Shown here: positions 818 through 26,574 of the stretch, in pieces
Layout: the number at the start of each line of letters is the position of its first letter
Numbering within the stretch: the first letter of the stretch is position 1
Source of the DNA: a virus
Virus record (IMG/VR): IMGVR_UViG_3300020401_000076
Coordinates: 1-26,611 of that record
Direction: 5' to 3' (one strand)
Length of the DNA stretch: 26,611 bases
Notes under the pieces: model-generated
Told to the model about the DNA's origin: nothing
Databases searched by the model: none
Seen by the model: only the letters and a program-made list of their open reading frames with translations
Made by a program: the position numbers and the translations under genes

Positions 818-3526
818 ATGGCTGTAGTATCAAAAGCAATACCTACATTGCTAAGAGGAATATCACAGGCTGCTGATAACACCAAACAGGCTGATCATGC
901 TGACATTCAAGACAATGCTGATAGCAACCCTGTCATAGGTCTTACAAAGCGTTCTGGTTTGCAATATATAACCAACCTCAGTTCTTCTACTTTAGGTAAT
1001 GTTCATATACAAACTATTAATAGAGATGTTAATGAGAGGTATGTAGCAATATTTAGTAATGGCAATGTAAAAGTTTATGATATTGATGGCACAGAAAAAA
1101 ATGTAAACAAACCAGATGGAACAACATACCTAAATACTTCTGACCCTAGAAATGCAATAAAGACTGTAACTATAGCTGACTATACTTTTGTGATTAATAC
1201 TAATGTTACTACTGCAATGGATGAAAGCGTTTCAAGTTTATCATCTTCAAATATTACGCAAGCTATTGCTTTTATTAACCAAGTTTCAGACAAAACTACA
1301 TATACAATAACAGTTGACAGTACTACGGCCACACACGATACAACAAATGACACTGCATTAGATACATCTTTTGTTGCTGGCACTTTAGCCAACAAATTAC
1401 TTGGTATAAATGGTCAATCACCAACTAGCGGATCACCTTTAACAGGGTTTACAGTTGTACAAAATGGAAGTGTTTTACATGTTAAAAAGAATGATGGCAG
1501 CAATTTTTCTATAAGCGGTACTGATACTCAAGGAGAAACTCATTTAACAATAGTTAAAAATTCAGTGCAAAGATTTACTGATCTTCCAATAGTGTCACCT
1601 AATGGTTATGTTGTAGAAGTAAAAGGTGATGAAAATACAAACTTTGATAATTATTACGTTAAGTTTGTTACTAATAATGGAGGGACATTTGAACAAGGAC
1701 AGTGGGAAGAATGTGTAGAGCCAGGAATTGAATTTAAATTTAATTATGATTCAATGCCTCATGTTTTAATAAGACAGGCAGATGGTGATTTCAGATTTGC
1801 AAGAGTAGATGGTGATAGTTATACAGCTTTTACAGGGTCAGGTACATATGATCAACAAAATTCTACTACTGTAACTGTTACTTCAACTGCTCATGGTTTA
1901 TCAACTGGTAACTCAATAACTTTCGATCACACTTCTGGGACTGCTGTTGATGGCTCTTTCACTATTACAGTAGTAGATGCGAATACATTTACATATACAG
2001 CAGCAGGTACATTAACAACAAGTGGAAATGTTAGCTTTGGAATTACTAATAACTATACATTACCTAAATGGGGGGAAAGAACTGTAGGCGATTTAGACTC
2101 AGCACCTAACCCTTCTTTTATTGGTAATAAAATAAATAATGTTTTTTTCTTTAGAAACAGGCTTGGGTTTTTAGCTGATGATAATGTTATTTTATCAAGA
2201 GCAGCAGAATTTTTTAACTTTTTCCCAGAAACAGTTTTGTCTGTAATTGATAGTGAACCTATAGATGTAGCAGCTTCACATACTAAAGTAGCTATTTTAA
2301 GAAGTGCTGTAACAGTAGAGCAAGAATTAATATTATTTTCCGATCAAACACAGTTTGTCCTTACGTCTTCCACTGACAACCTTACACCTAAATCTGCCAA
2401 TGTGGTGGTAGTTACTGAATTTGAATCTGATGATGATGCACAACCTGTAGGTGCTGGTAGCAGTATTTATTATTTATCCAAAAGAGGATCTTTTGCAAAC
2501 ATTAGAGAGTATGTATATCAAAGAGATCTTGTTATAAAAGAATCTAGTAATATCACTGTTCATGTACCGAAACTAATACCAAGTAATATATTTAAATTTG
2601 CAGTCTCTACAAGTGCGGATGTTTTGGTTTGTTTAGGTACAGATAATCCTAATAAACTATACATCAATAGATGGTTGTATGGTCAGCAGTATCAAAAGAT
2701 ATTGAACAGTTGGTCTACTTTTACTATTAATGAAAATAGATCTATTAAGAATGTTGATTTTATTGGTAGTGATTTGTTTCTCGTAATAGAAGAAGCAAAC
2801 GGTACAACATTAGAAAAGATACCTTTTGAGAATGAATTTACAGAAGCTAATGCTACCTTTGAATATCGTTTAGACCATAAGGTTACAGAGGCTACTACTG
2901 GTGTATCGGTTGCTTATGACTCTACTACTGATATTTCTACATTTACTGTCCCTTATAAATTAAGAGCTAATATGAATATTGTTGGCAGGTATTTAGGTAG
3001 TGGAGAAACAAGTACTTTTGTAAGCCCACAAAACATAACAACAAATTTAAAACCAGGACAACTTATAGCAACAACAAATGCTATTGACGGTTCAACGTCT
3101 ACAATTACAGCATCAGGTGATTACAGAAATAGTAAATTTATTATTGGTGAACCTTATGAAATGCACTATAGATTTAGTGAACAAAGAATAAGAGATGGAC
3201 AAGGAGGTTCAAATTCTGGAGAAATACTTGGTGGTCGTTTGCAACTACATCATTTCTATATCAAATTTGAAGATACAGGTTTTTTTAAAGTAGAAGTTAC
3301 ACCAGAACATAGAGATACATCTACTCATAAATTTACTGGTAAACTTTTAGGTGCAGCTAGTAGTACTATTGGATCAATTAATTTAGAGTCAGGGTCATTT
3401 AAAGTTCCTGTGATGAGCAGAGCAGATAGAGTTAATATTGATGTAAAGAACAATACATTTCTACCTACAACATTGGCTAGTGCAGAATATGAGGCTATGT
3501 TCCATATGAGGAGTAGACGTATTTAA
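818..3526 (+). CDS. Tail tubular protein B (T7 gp12-like nozzle)
   Basis: 902 residues, about 100 longer than T7 gp12 (794). In T7 the protein forms the hexameric nozzle at the tail tip. The N-terminus (MAVVSKAIPTLLRGISQAAD, then a segment with NPVIGLTKRSGLQYI) and the 'FRNRLGFLADDNVILSRAAEFFNFF' block near residue 445 are characteristic of this family. Residues about 340-410 form an apparent insertion with a repeat-like 'TAHGLSTG...FTITVVDANTFTYTAAGT' pattern, resembling the small FCCH-type beta domains inserted in many phage tail proteins. An AAGG sequence five bases before the ATG can serve as ribosome-binding site. The stop overlaps the next start (TAATG). Confidence 0.93.
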   Translation: MAVVSKAIPTLLRGISQAADNTKQADHADIQDNADSNPVIGLTKRSGLQYITNLSSSTLGNVHIQTINRDVNERYVAIFSNGNVKVYDIDGTEKNVNKPDGTTYLNTSDPRNAIKTVTIADYTFVINTNVTTAMDESVSSLSSSNITQAIAFINQVSDKTTYTITVDSTTATHDTTNDTALDTSFVAGTLANKLLGINGQSPTSGSPLTGFTVVQNGSVLHVKKNDGSNFSISGTDTQGETHLTIVKNSVQRFTDLPIVSPNGYVVEVKGDENTNFDNYYVKFVTNNGGTFEQGQWEECVEPGIEFKFNYDSMPHVLIRQADGDFRFARVDGDSYTAFTGSGTYDQQNSTTVTVTSTAHGLSTGNSITFDHTSGTAVDGSFTITVVDANTFTYTAAGTLTTSGNVSFGITNNYTLPKWGERTVGDLDSAPNPSFIGNKINNVFFFRNRLGFLADDNVILSRAAEFFNFFPETVLSVIDSEPIDVAASHTKVAILRSAVTVEQELILFSDQTQFVLTSSTDNLTPKSANVVVVTEFESDDDAQPVGAGSSIYYLSKRGSFANIREYVYQRDLVIKESSNITVHVPKLIPSNIFKFAVSTSADVLVCLGTDNPNKLYINRWLYGQQYQKILNSWSTFTINENRSIKNVDFIGSDLFLVIEEANGTTLEKIPFENEFTEANATFEYRLDHKVTEATTGVSVAYDSTTDISTFTVPYKLRANMNIVGRYLGSGETSTFVSPQNITTNLKPGQLIATTNAIDGSTSTITASGDYRNSKFIIGEPYEMHYRFSEQRIRDGQGGSNSGEILGGRLQLHHFYIKFEDTGFFKVEVTPEHRDTSTHKFTGKLLGAASSTIGSINLESGSFKVPVMSRADRVNIDVKNNTFLPTTLASAEYEAMFHMRSRRI

Positions 3527-17606: not shown

Positions 17607-18041
17607 ATGAACTATGCAATCATTAATGGTACTACTGTAACAAGCACTGGTACTATTCAAAAATTATTTCCTTCTACTATCTTCCCTGCTACTGGTCCTA
17701 ATGCAGATTTCTTAACAGCAAATAGTGTTGTTGAATTAGTAGAAACTCTTAGCTATACGACACCAACACAAAAGCTTACTTCAGTTGATCCATATGTGCA
17801 AAGTGGTAAGGCATATAATGTGAAGGTGGAATCTACTACAACAGAAGAACAAGCTGCATTAACTTCTCAAAAATGGGAAGAAGTTAGAAACCAAAGAAAT
17901 ACAATACTACAAGCAACAGATTGGATGGCCTCTAGCGATCTTACCTTGTCAGATGCTTGGAAAAATTATAGACAAGCCTTAAGAGATGTACCGACACAAT
18001 CTGATCCATTTAATATTACTTGGCCTACTTCACCTAGTTAA
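17607..18041 (+). CDS. Phage tail assembly chaperone-like protein
   Basis: 144 residues. The C-terminal third contains the recognisable pattern RNTILQATDWMAS...WKNYRQALRDVPTQ...FNITWPTSP, which matches the C-terminal domain of tail-fibre assembly chaperone families (Phage_tail_APC type, 'R..LL..TDW....L....W..YRQALRD.P.Q....N..WP..P'). The N-terminal part is beta-rich and has no recognised domain. It follows the lectin gene by 13 bases; the leader (aaactattatt) has no Shine-Dalgarno sequence. Position after three fibre genes fits a role in folding or attaching fibres. Confidence 0.7.
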   Translation: MNYAIINGTTVTSTGTIQKLFPSTIFPATGPNADFLTANSVVELVETLSYTTPTQKLTSVDPYVQSGKAYNVKVESTTTEEQAALTSQKWEEVRNQRNTILQATDWMASSDLTLSDAWKNYRQALRDVPTQSDPFNITWPTSPS

Positions 18042-18057
18042 AATTTAAATAAAACTT

Positions 18058-18228
18058 ATGGCACGAAAAACTAACGAAGAGCTAAGTCAAGAACTCTTAG
18101 CAATCGAAAAAAGATACAATGAAAATGTGCAAGAGCAAAGACAATTACAAGATAGAGCTATTGCTATAAATGCAACTTTACAAGACAGAGCGGAGGCAGA
18201 AACCGAAAAAAAGTCTATTGCGAAATAA
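18058..18228 (+). CDS. Short coiled-coil protein, zero-frame product of a likely frameshift pair
   Basis: 56 residues, starting MARKTNEELSQELLAIEKRY and continuing with many Glu, Gln and Leu, so one long amphipathic or coiled-coil helix. It follows the chaperone-like gene by 16 bases with an AT-rich leader lacking a Shine-Dalgarno sequence. Three codons before the end the reading frame contains GAA AAA AAG, a perfect A_AAA_AAG slippery heptamer in the correct phase, with GGAGG exactly ten bases upstream. A -1 slip would fuse the helix to the zinc finger encoded next. Function of the short form is unknown; it may oligomerise with the long form. Confidence 0.65.
   Translation: MARKTNEELSQELLAIEKRYNENVQEQRQLQDRAIAINATLQDRAEAETEKKSIAK
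18192..18213 (+). promoter_or_regulatory. Putative programmed -1 ribosomal frameshift site (dnaX type)
   Basis: GGAGG at 18192-18196 lies ten bases before A_AAA_AAG at 18207-18213. The heptamer is in the right phase with respect to the upstream ORF (codons GAA AAA AAG). This is the arrangement of the E. coli dnaX signal, where an internal Shine-Dalgarno sequence about ten bases upstream stimulates slipping at the same heptamer. The zero-frame stop comes 12 bases after the heptamer. Only a weak downstream hairpin is visible (GCAG 18236-18239 with CTGC 18248-18251). A homopolymer sequencing error is the main alternative. Confidence 0.6.
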
Positions 18229-18344
18229 TAGAAAAGCAGTGTAAATGCTGCGGTAAAATGTTTTCTACTACCGAACAACGTAGAAAATATTGTTCTAATG
18301 CTTGCAAAACAAAGTTTTATCGCAGAAAAAAAGCTACTTTATAG
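18213..18344 (+). CDS. Zinc-finger extension read in the -1 frame (no start codon of its own)
   Basis: In the -1 frame the sequence reads VYCEIIEKQCKCCGKMFSTT followed by EQRRKYCSNACKTKFYRRKK, 43 residues to the TAG at 18342-18344. The C-x2-C-G-K-x-F ... YCS-x2-C-K-x3-YRR pattern is a common small zinc finger in phage and bacterial proteins. The -1 frame is open only from 18156, and it has no ATG, GTG or TTG before the first CxxC; the only ATG (18258) would delete half of the zinc site. Production by frameshifting from the upstream ORF, giving about 95 residues, explains this best. A pseudogene or a missing base in the A7 run is possible. Confidence 0.55.
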   Translation, partial: VYCEIIEKQCKCCGKMFSTTEQRRKYCSNACKTKFYRRKKATL

Positions 18345-18430: not shown

Positions 18431-18661
18431 ATGCTAAACCGCATATGTCAGATTTTAAGTATCGTTTCATTTGTAATGGTAGCTTCCATGAGTGGTGGAG
18501 CGTACTTCGGTTACAAGTATTTAACATCTGAAAACTTTAAGAGCCGAGTCATGAAAGAAATCATGGGTAACGTATCTGGAATGATGCCAAAAGTATTAGA
18601 TCAAGGTTTACCTGACGTAACAGGACCATCTATACCTACTAAATCTCTCCCTAAACTCTAA
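18431..18661 (+). CDS. Small single-span membrane protein, function unknown
   Basis: I prefer ATG 18431 (76 residues) to the longer open frame from 18302, because the longer N-terminus overlaps the zinc finger in another frame and looks non-coding. The chosen start has AGGA about ten bases upstream and gives a conventional product: MLNRICQILSIVSFVMVASM plus a Gly-rich stretch make one transmembrane helix (about 6-29), followed by a basic amphipathic segment and a Pro-rich tail ending in PTKSLPKL. Similar small proteins occur in cyanophages as far as I recall, without a known function. A lysis or envelope role is possible. It precedes two other membrane-associated proteins in the same direction. 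Confidence 0.6.
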   Translation: MLNRICQILSIVSFVMVASMSGGAYFGYKYLTSENFKSRVMKEIMGNVSGMMPKVLDQGLPDVTGPSIPTKSLPKL

Positions 18662-18667
18662 GCCTAT

Positions 18668-19213
18668 ATGAATAATAATATTATTTTTAAAGGAGTAGCA
18701 GTAGGACTTGGAACAGCTTTTGTATCTTCTCAATTTTATGCGATTAATTTATTAGCTACAAAACCTAACTTACCTATGTTTGATTTGCCTGTTAGTAAAT
18801 ATTCTACTTATGAGATTGAAGCTGATAAAGATAGTTATAAGATAAGACATAGAATGCACGATCCAAGAATTATTGCTTCCATTGAAAGTAGTAAAAAGCC
18901 AGCAGGTTTTTTAGGTGCTAGTAAGGCTTATGTCACAAAAGAGAGTCAAAGGATAGCTGGTGAAAAGGATGTAACTATTGTGAATAATGGTGAGCTTACA
19001 GCAAAACAAATAGCTTGCATAAAAGAAAGAGCAAAAGGTGAGTCAACTGGAGAACTTATTGGAACGTCAGTAGCTACAGGAACAGGTTTATCTAGCTCAT
19101 TAGCTAATGTTCCTATTGTCGGCTGGTTCTTATCTGGGTTTGCTACTAACACAGCTAGAAGAGAAGGCGGTAAGATAGGAGGTAATATGGCTGCTGACTT
19201 TAACGATTGTTAA
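18668..19213 (+). CDS. Membrane-associated protein of unknown function
   Basis: 181 residues. The N-terminus (NIIFKGVAVGLGTAFVSSQF) is an apolar signal-anchor-like helix without a clear cleavage site. The middle is hydrophilic, with one Cys (CIKERAKGE). Residues about 125-165 are a Gly/Ser/Ala-rich apolar stretch (GELIGTSVATGTGLSSSLAN, then PIVGWFLSGF), which may be a second membrane or glycine-zipper-like segment. No family is recognised. It begins six bases after the previous stop and ends in TAATG with the next gene, so the three form one transcription unit. A role in the host or virion membrane is inferred only. Confidence 0.6.
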   Translation: MNNNIIFKGVAVGLGTAFVSSQFYAINLLATKPNLPMFDLPVSKYSTYEIEADKDSYKIRHRMHDPRIIASIESSKKPAGFLGASKAYVTKESQRIAGEKDVTIVNNGELTAKQIACIKERAKGESTGELIGTSVATGTGLSSSLANVPIVGWFLSGFATNTARREGGKIGGNMAADFNDC

Positions 19214-19869
19214 TGCCTACGATTAAAGTTCCTGAGATAAAAATACCAAAAATAAATATACCAGAAACGCCATATGTACCTGAAACTGTATTGGTAGGAG
19301 AAAACCCTGCTTGTGATTTAACTAATAGAGATATAGAACTATCAGAAAATCCAACTATAATTTTTCATGGAAGAAAGGCTTATGCTACTTGTCCTAATGG
19401 TCAGGCAATCGCTGGCACACAACCAATTAAAGTACAACCAGAAGCTAAAACAATTAGACCTATTGTTTATGATGCACAAGACACTATAGAAACAGAAGGT
19501 ACATATAAATTTCAACCAAAAGCAAGTGGAGTAAATATTAATTTAGGACAAAAAGAAGAAGAGGAAGAAATCGAATTAGCACCTTGTCCACCTAAAAATG
19601 CACCATACAGACCTGGAGATTGGCGTAATGAGCTTAGATTAGAAAGGCTGGTAAAATATGAGCGTGGGCTATTGGAGGGTTCCTGTGATGCAATCTGGGA
19701 AGAAGTACCATTTGTTGACCAGTACATACCGACAGCTAGTGTTGTTGTATCTACTGCTGTTATTGCTTCTGTTGCTGCCACTACTCCACTACTACTTAAT
19801 ATTGTCAAACCCTTAGTAAAAAATATTATAAAAAAGCTGACAAAGAAGAAAGAAAAAAAGGTAGAATAA
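19213..19869 (+). CDS. Pro-rich protein with C-terminal membrane segment, function unknown
   Basis: 218 residues from ATG 19213, which overlaps the preceding TAA; a TTG two codons earlier is in frame but less likely. The N-terminus has a periodic pattern of proline every three to five residues (IKVPEIKIPKINIPETP), suggesting an extended polyproline-like rod. There are cysteine pairs in 'NPACDL' and 'YATCPNGQ', and later 'APCPPK' and 'GSCDAI', then an acidic run (EEEEE). The C-terminus carries one apolar helix (about 170-200) and a strongly basic tail (KKLTKKKEKK), so it is probably anchored with the tail facing the cytoplasm. Recalled as a type of unannotated cyanophage protein; not verified. 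Confidence 0.6.
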   Translation: MPTIKVPEIKIPKINIPETPYVPETVLVGENPACDLTNRDIELSENPTIIFHGRKAYATCPNGQAIAGTQPIKVQPEAKTIRPIVYDAQDTIETEGTYKFQPKASGVNINLGQKEEEEEIELAPCPPKNAPYRPGDWRNELRLERLVKYERGLLEGSCDAIWEEVPFVDQYIPTASVVVSTAVIASVAATTPLLLNIVKPLVKNIIKKLTKKKEKKVE

Positions 19870-22496: not shown

Positions 22497-22724
22497 ATGG
22501 GAAAAGAAAAAAAGTTAGAATTATTAGAAAATCTTCAAACTGTTCTCATACAAGAATTATTAGGAAGAATAAAATGTGGCGAAGCAAAACCAGGAGATCT
22601 TAACGTAGCTAGACAATTATTAAAAGATAACGGCATAGAGTGCATACCAACAGAGAAGAATCCTATGGAAGATCTCATGTCAAACTTACCAGACCTTGAT
22701 GTCATACCTGCACTTGAAAGATAA
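22497..22724 (+). CDS. Terminase small subunit (T7 gp18-like)
   Basis: 75 residues, slightly shorter than T7 gp18 (89). 'LLGRIKCGEAKPGDLNVARQLLKDNGIEC' matches the conserved core of this family ('...G..TP.DLNVARQFLKDNGI'), and the acidic C-terminus fits. It immediately precedes the large subunit, with the stop adjoining the next start. The small subunit recognises concatemeric phage DNA and regulates the packaging motor. The leader (ccaattctaatt) has no Shine-Dalgarno sequence. Confidence 0.9.
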   Translation: MGKEKKLELLENLQTVLIQELLGRIKCGEAKPGDLNVARQLLKDNGIECIPTEKNPMEDLMSNLPDLDVIPALER

Positions 22725-26151: not shown

Positions 26152-26318
26152 TGAGTGATTATCCATACAACCTTACAGCAATAGCTACTCATTTAAGAGA
26201 GCTTGCACAGTCTATTGCTAAGAAGCTAGACATTAGTGAACAGGATGCATGGGATCTTTGTATAGAAAAACTTGAATACAAGTATTCATACATGACAAGG
26301 GAGGACAATAATGATTGA
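26151..26318 (+). CDS. Small helical protein, function unknown
   Basis: 55 residues: MSDYPYNLTAIATHLRELAQ followed by SIAKKLDISEQDAWDLCIEK and a Tyr-rich C-terminus. The first 30 residues could form two helices resembling a small DNA-binding or dimerising motif, but no family is recognised. Six G (26139-26144) six bases before the ATG act as ribosome-binding site. It overlaps the next gene by eight bases, whose own GGGAGG lies inside it. Confidence 0.55.
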   Translation: MSDYPYNLTAIATHLRELAQSIAKKLDISEQDAWDLCIEKLEYKYSYMTREDNND

Positions 26319-26574
26319 ATGTCCTAACTGCAAAAGCACTAATACTATTGTCTTACATACAAGAGAAAGGGAAGCTGCATATCTTTGGAGGTCTAGAACT
26401 TGCAAAGAATGTGGTAAGAAGTTTAGTACAAGAGAGTACAGTTTAGAAGAACTTGCTAAATTGATTGATGAAGGCAAAGAATCTCTTGATAATATGCGTG
26501 GTCACTGCGATGAATTACTAGCTGATTTAAAAGAACTTATCTCTCAATATTCAAATACAAAGGAGGTTAAATAA
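26311..26574 (+). CDS. NrdR-type zinc-ribbon protein without ATP-cone
   Basis: 87 residues. The N-terminus has C4-P-N-C7 and C31-K-E-C34 followed by GKKFSTRE, with 'VLHTRERE' and 'RSRTC' between. This is the zinc ribbon of NrdR, the bacterial repressor of ribonucleotide reductase genes ('CP.C....T.V..SR......RRRR.C..C..RFTT.E'). The remaining 47 residues are a charged helix, not the ATP-cone that senses nucleotides in NrdR. A DNA-binding regulator or a competitor of host NrdR is plausible. GGGAGG lies just upstream, and the gene is coupled to the next by TAATG with AAGGAGG. Confidence 0.7.
   Translation: MIECPNCKSTNTIVLHTREREAAYLWRSRTCKECGKKFSTREYSLEELAKLIDEGKESLDNMRGHCDELLADLKELISQYSNTKEVK

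Follow-up and report, generated by a model that had tools for sequence, protein, structure and literature searches.

A putative programmed -1 ribosomal frameshift signal linking a coiled-coil gene to a zinc finger in uncultured ocean phages

The best-known cases of programmed frameshifting in phages are capsid and tail-chaperone genes. In T7 (gene 10A/10B) and T3 (gene 10), a -1 frameshift in a late podovirus gene extends a fraction of the protein molecules at the C-terminus (PMC5009743). The tail assembly chaperones G/GT of siphophages and myophages, the dnaX gene of E. coli and the A_AAA_AAG frameshifts of IS3/IS911-type elements are the other described systems with which the locus reported here can be compared. 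The dnaX frameshift yields a shorter product. A_AAA_AAG is among the most shift-prone heptamers in E. coli (PMC4066793; PMC5009743), and Shine-Dalgarno (SD) stimulators of -1 shifting work at distances of 9-14 nt (PMC5009743).

The locus lies in a 26.6-kb fragment of a T7-like phage, the whole of which is referred to as the window. With their counterparts in Prochlorococcus phage P-SCSP2, the large terminase of this phage (22725-24446) shares 78% and the tail tubular protein B 64% identity. Therefore, the photosynthetic Prochlorococcus is the likely host, which is not shown. Tail tubular protein B (818-3526) has 902 aa and exceeds the 793-position PHROG profile, which it matched end to end, by about 100 aa, so that it apparently carries an insertion. 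At the end of the window, an 87-aa ORF (26311-26574) with CPNCKS...RTCKECGKKFSTRE resembles the zinc ribbon of NrdR-type regulators. The coil ORF is located behind tail-fibre genes, between a Phage_tail_APC gene and a phrog_568 gene, and a similar Phage_tail_APC gene terminates 5' of the coil in many relatives. No phage-encoded tRNA that could aid a shift was found in the window. The features are as follows.

17607-18041, + strand: gene of the Phage_tail_APC (tail-fibre assembly) family, upstream context (PF16778, E=1.7e-15)
18058-18228, + strand: coil ORF in the zero frame, 56 aa, MARKTNEELSQELLAIEKRYNENVQEQRQLQDRAIAINATLQDRAEAETEKKSIAK, heptad-like helix of the PHROG 20003 family (phrog_20003, E=1.7e-8)
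18192-18196, + strand: GGAGG, internal SD-like stimulator with a 10-nt spacer to the heptamer (from the sequence; 60/77 loci)
18207-18213, + strand: slippery heptamer A_AAA_AAG, in phase (in-phase A_AAA_AA(G/A) in 77/77 loci)
18213-18344, + strand: -1 extension, consisting of the linker VYCEIIEKQ and a C-x2-C-x13-C-x3-C zinc finger with a basic C-terminus (invariant Cys; codon-position bias)
18226-18231, + strand: tandem zero-frame stops TAA TAG, end of the short product (from the sequence)
18240-18341, + strand: zinc finger proper, CKCCGKMFSTTEQRRKYCSNACKTKFYRRKKATL (profile E=7.4e-22 in the window)
18431-18661, + strand: small phrog_568 gene, downstream context (E=2.9e-14)

Like the dnaX signal, the locus combines A_AAA_AAG with an SD-like element 10 nt upstream, a spacer that falls inside the range for SD-stimulated -1 shifting. 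Unlike for dnaX, no conserved downstream stem-loop was found for this marine phage locus; the encoded protein is unrelated, and the shift would lengthen the product by adding a new domain. The addition of a C-terminal extension by a -1 shift is shared with gene 10 of T7 and T3, but those are major capsid genes and the slip site of T7 is of the G_GU type, whereas here a 56-aa coil gene in the tail-fibre region would receive a zinc finger at A_AAA_AAG. As for G/GT, a small protein and a C-terminally extended version would come from one gene, but the locus is not positioned between the tail tube/major tail protein and tape measure genes, and no Pfam or PHROG match relates the coil-finger to these chaperones. 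The heptamer of IS3/IS911-type elements belongs to the same class and is often preceded by an SD; unlike them, the locus has no transposase and lies in a phage structural neighbourhood.

For the analysis of conservation, 77 distinct coil-finger loci were collected from the window and its IMG/VR relatives in four scans of viral contigs, re-read by script and freed of duplicates; five ATG-started fingers behind tail genes were excluded from this set. In all 77 loci the finger is in the -1 frame, and the frame overlap contains an in-phase heptamer, which is A_AAA_AAG in 74 and A_AAA_AAA in three (L093, L095, L217). The zero-frame codons of the window heptamer are AAA at 18208 and AAG at 18211. 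Most loci have a run of seven A. Nine loci (L019, L020, L021, L023, L081, L086, L222, L231, L233) have six A only, yet A_AAA_AAG is kept exactly in phase, and therefore it is the heptamer that is conserved and not the A run. The distance from the heptamer to the first Cys is variable, mostly 30, 33, 36 or 45 bases, and always amounts to whole codons.

Codon choice within the coil was strongly skewed at the signal. The second slippery Lys is encoded by AAG in 66/69 loci with a MARKT-type coil, compared to 50/283 at the other Lys codons of the same coils. The GAG codon of Glu46, which together with the next codon forms the SD-like GAGG, is used in 59/68 MARKT-type coils, compared to 59 of the 540 other Glu codons in these coils; in coil-only homologues it is found in 5/14. 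Across 45 gap-free loci, the synonymous difference fraction was 0 at K51 and K52 and 0.04 at E46, and was 0.1-0.7 at most other coil codons. The signal is thus conserved beyond the amino-acid need. The codon counts were not corrected for sequence kinship, so the tests are not independent; the biases are seen throughout 17 coil clusters defined at 80% identity and also in a second family of coils. No other in-phase A_AAA_AAG was found in 13 larger window genes (6841 codons). A wider scan of 24 window genes (8247 codons) gave three, of which one lies at codon 3 of 22497-22724 and the other two lie where gene 19207-19869 ends in a Lys-rich stretch.

The two heptamers in gene 19207-19869 are in-phase AAAAAAG at codons 207 and 215, near the Lys-rich C-terminus. 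The -1 frame of this gene closes shortly past them; therefore they are probably incidental, and the gene was rejected as a further frameshift gene.

An SD-like element, GAGG or GGGG at positions -14 to -11 before the heptamer, is present in 60/77 loci and missing in 17. Runs of eight to ten A occur in eight loci (L093, L095, L100, L217, L219, L220, L221, L232), all of them without the SD-like element, which corresponds to 8/17 loci without the element versus 0/60 with it (Fisher p ~1e-6, uncorrected for kinship). It is inferred as a possibility that a longer A run compensates for a lost SD-like element, the one stimulator being traded for the other. When 20 loci were folded, no common structure that would represent a conserved downstream hairpin could be observed; the folds were mostly weak (z -3.8 to +0.6), with z=-0.68 for the window and stronger local hairpins in L019 and L226. 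As a conserved downstream hairpin is lacking, the efficiency of the shift may be modest.

The PHROG 20003 profile matches residues 1-52 of the coil; the function of this family is unknown. Hydrophobic residues were identified at positions 9, 13, 16, (20), 24, 34/35, 37 and 41 in 60 distinct coils, and from this heptad-like pattern it is inferred that the helix, which both products would share, oligomerises. Of the 77 loci, 59 end the zero frame with TAA and 18 with TAG. This stop follows immediately after AAG in 11 of them, and elsewhere the zero-frame tail past the slip site is variable (SSAK, QEE or QQLQES).

In the -1 frame, post-slip reading begins with GTC (18213) and continues as VYCEIIEKQ-CKCCGKMFSTTEQRRKYCSNACKTKFYRRKKATL to the stop TAG at 18342-18344, which gives a coil-finger fusion of 95 aa with AEAETEKKVYCEIIEK and AEAETEKKVFCEIIEK as predicted junction peptides. 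No ATG, GTG or TTG is present in the open stretch of the window before the first Cys (SYCYKCNFTRQSGGRNRKKVYCEIIEKQ), and none is found ahead of the finger in any of the 77 coil-finger loci. When the 45 gap-free loci were compared pairwise in the -1 frame, the differences at the three codon positions were 0.076/0.083/0.304. Most differences therefore fall on the third position, which shows that purifying selection acts on the finger protein. Even very different versions of the finger share the four Cys, TxEQR, YC and a late Arg without exception.

The finger resembles in sequence the small CxxC...CxxxC fingers of phage HNH endonucleases (phrog_15471, E=9e-6; phrog_1271, E=1.2e-4), but the coil-finger lacks an HNH nuclease domain. 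An HNH endonuclease was rejected as identity of the product, as the finger part alone matches and the HNH segment is absent from the 95 aa. The gyrase inhibitor YacG was rejected as well (NCBIfam 12.0 bits versus a cut-off of 79, E=0.13). Searches for a known domain gave nothing above the cut-off in Pfam and only sub-threshold matches in NCBIfam, and no meaningful sequence or fold relative of the finger was found in the PDB. In cellular genomes a single distant match was obtained, in a Bacteroidia MAG. An AF2 model of a natural coil-finger fusion (L026) showed a helix and a small helical finger with a mean pLDDT of 81.5 and a pTM of 0.37, and no informative structural relative of this model was identified.

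A first-pass annotation had described the locus from the window alone. Its coordinates, the phase of the heptamer, the GGAGG ten bases upstream and the -1 finger without a start were all correct to the base. The alignment of homologues that it proposed as a test was run and supported it: the split frame and heptamer were found in 77/77 loci, the SD-like spacing in 60/77 and third-position changes elsewhere. Its statement that the layout equals the dnaX signal held in part, for the heptamer and the SD-like element and not for the downstream stem-loop. The products of 56 and about 95 residues that it proposed are matched by the ORFs, their production being inferred; the fixed ratio between them and the oligomerisation that it suggested remain inferences, as does any function.

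The coil and finger occur in three states, namely as a coil with a slippery finger, as a coil alone, and as a finger alone with its own ATG. Coil-only homologues, which have neither finger nor slippery site, include the ..KESQFETCTPKLEKALESTSI group (L015-L018, L117 and others) and proteins of two cultured phages, podovirus P-RSP2 (PRRG_00020) and Prochlorococcus phage MED4-184 (CPAG_00005). These PHROG 20003 proteins have the same coil type and a similar place in the genome; in MED4-184, a phrog_568-type gene (CPAG_00006), a neighbour shared with the window, follows the coil. Unlike the window locus, they consist of the coil only and have no slippery site, and the finger was not found in the complete genomes of either phage. 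ATG-started finger-only genes were identified at eight loci (L094, L097, L099, L101, L102, L210, L215, L216), where they sit behind tail-fibre or Phage_tail_APC genes without a slippery overlap with the upstream ORF. Neither a separate coil in the finger-only contigs nor a separate finger in the coil-only contigs was found, most of these contigs being fragments.

Seven loci (L222, L223, L226, L230, L231, L233, L234) carry a different coil of the EKQIL type (MKALIEKQILEWQQEII...), for which no homology to the MARKT type was detectable. All seven have A_AAA_AAG, and four also have the SD-like element with its spacing unchanged. In L085, a third, divergent coil with a weak match to the MARKT type has also kept the slippery signal. 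Replacement of the coil by one with no detectable relationship to it has left the slippery-finger cassette in place. The cassette was found in contigs with a T7-like terminase (L075, L086, L034) and in the L052 contig (L237, L238), a lambda-like siphovirus with terminase, tape measure and central fibre J, and it therefore crosses tail types. The first-pass annotation, which had treated the system as one of a T7-like phage, was in this respect only partly right. It had also stated that homologues in which the finger has its own start, or in which the slippery site is absent, would refute the frameshift. The former exist, but without coil or slippery overlap, and do not refute it; the slippery site is missing in the coil-only homologues and present in all 77 coil-finger loci.

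The L052 contig also contains 180-aa and 217-aa neighbours that are like the window genes 18668-19213 and 19207-19869. These shared neighbours suggest that T7-like and lambda-like phages may have exchanged the whole block behind the tail-fibre genes. In L026 (1771-1998), which is related to L062, coil and finger are fused in frame via a deletion inside the coil. L026 may be a genuine long-only variant or an assembly error or chimera; if genuine, it would indicate that the short form is maybe dispensable in some phages.

Programmed -1 ribosomal frameshifting very likely yields two products from the locus, which would be a single gene. What the sequences show is the signal, that it is conserved, and that selection acts on the finger as read in the -1 frame; the occurrence and the rate of the shift are inferred from the sequence, as no product or rate was measured. 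Transcriptional slippage, in which RNA polymerase would add an A in the A run and ordinary translation of mixed mRNAs would give the fusion, is unlikely. In its favour, the same protein would result, and the runs of eight to ten A are all found in loci without the SD-like element, so that slippage may contribute in these few loci. However, most loci have just seven A and nine only six, the G past the run is kept in 74/77 although an A would lengthen the run, the SD-like element, which keeps a constant spacing (60/77), can have an effect on ribosomes only, and slippage has no need for a triplet phase, yet the exact AAA AAG phase is kept. A sequencing error, with a true ORF of eight A, or a recent frameshift mutation in a decaying pseudogene is all but excluded. 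Homopolymers are error-prone and one extra A would join the frames, but the same split frame is found in 77 distinct sequences from many samples, nine of them with six A only, and the finger is under strong purifying selection in its own frame.

That the finger is a separate gene, translated from a non-standard start or by coupled re-initiation at the AUA overlapping the coil stop (ATAA), is considered very unlikely. Between the heptamer and the first Cys, 73/77 loci contain ATA, ATT or ATC in the frame of the finger, and ATG-started finger genes exist elsewhere. Against this, four loci (L219, L220, L221, L232) have no ATN or CTG at all in the interval, ATA is mostly explained by its overlap with the zero-frame TAA, ATG, GTG and TTG never occur in the 77 loci, and the invariant in-phase heptamer would be left unexplained. 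A different purpose of the same frameshift remains possible, in which it serves merely to keep the dose of finger protein low, with the short coil as a functionless by-product. The finger-only genes without a coil, the in-frame fusion in L026 and the lack of conservation of the zero-frame tail past the slip site are in line with this. However, coil-only genes are conserved in many phages, including the cultured P-RSP2 and MED4-184, which indicates that the coil alone is useful.

In the preferred reading, that of a programmed frameshift with two functional products, ribosomes translating the coil would pair with GGAGG and pause, and in some of them the two lysine tRNAs on A_AAA_AAG would slip back by one base and pair anew. 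For slippage on AAG the lysine tRNA set of the host is of importance, and a single UUU tRNA would favour it. Non-slipping ribosomes would halt at TAA TAG and release the 56-aa coiled-coil protein, and slipping ribosomes would make the 95-aa coil-finger. Oligomerisation through the shared helix would then give complexes bearing a sub-stoichiometric minority of fingers, and the basic finger may, at a late stage of infection, bind to nucleic acid or to a partner. Nucleic-acid binding is hinted at by the basic character of the finger and its resemblance to HNH endonuclease fingers, and a late function or a role in tail-fibre assembly by the position of the gene among tail-fibre and assembly genes. 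This role of an oligomer with a minority of basic fingers is inferred from sequence and is proposed tentatively, the case for it being weaker than the case against. A bolder reading, which may equally well prove right or wrong, is that slippery site and zinc finger form a self-contained cassette that has been attached to different oligomerising coils and carried across tail types, and that the ratio of finger-bearing to bare coil is itself selected, with SD-like element and A-run length traded to hold it.

All coil-finger loci come from uncultured viral contigs and none was found in a cultured phage; no record of the cassette was present among the 50,697 phage genomes searched. No prior account of a coil-finger frameshift was found in the open-licence literature searched, which is weak evidence of absence. 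The mechanism has been described before; what appears undescribed is the gene family, its finger extension, how widely it occurs in ocean phages, and that the signal is retained when the coil is replaced. Annotation would miss the finger because it has no start codon. The finding points to a gene family, widespread in ocean phages, in which a very small gene would encode a coil and coil-finger pair. With its natural variants (A6, A7 and A8-10 runs, presence or absence of the SD-like element, immediate or delayed stop, coil-only and finger-only forms and one in-frame fusion), this family offers a direct way to test what determines bacterial -1 frameshifting in AT-rich genomes.
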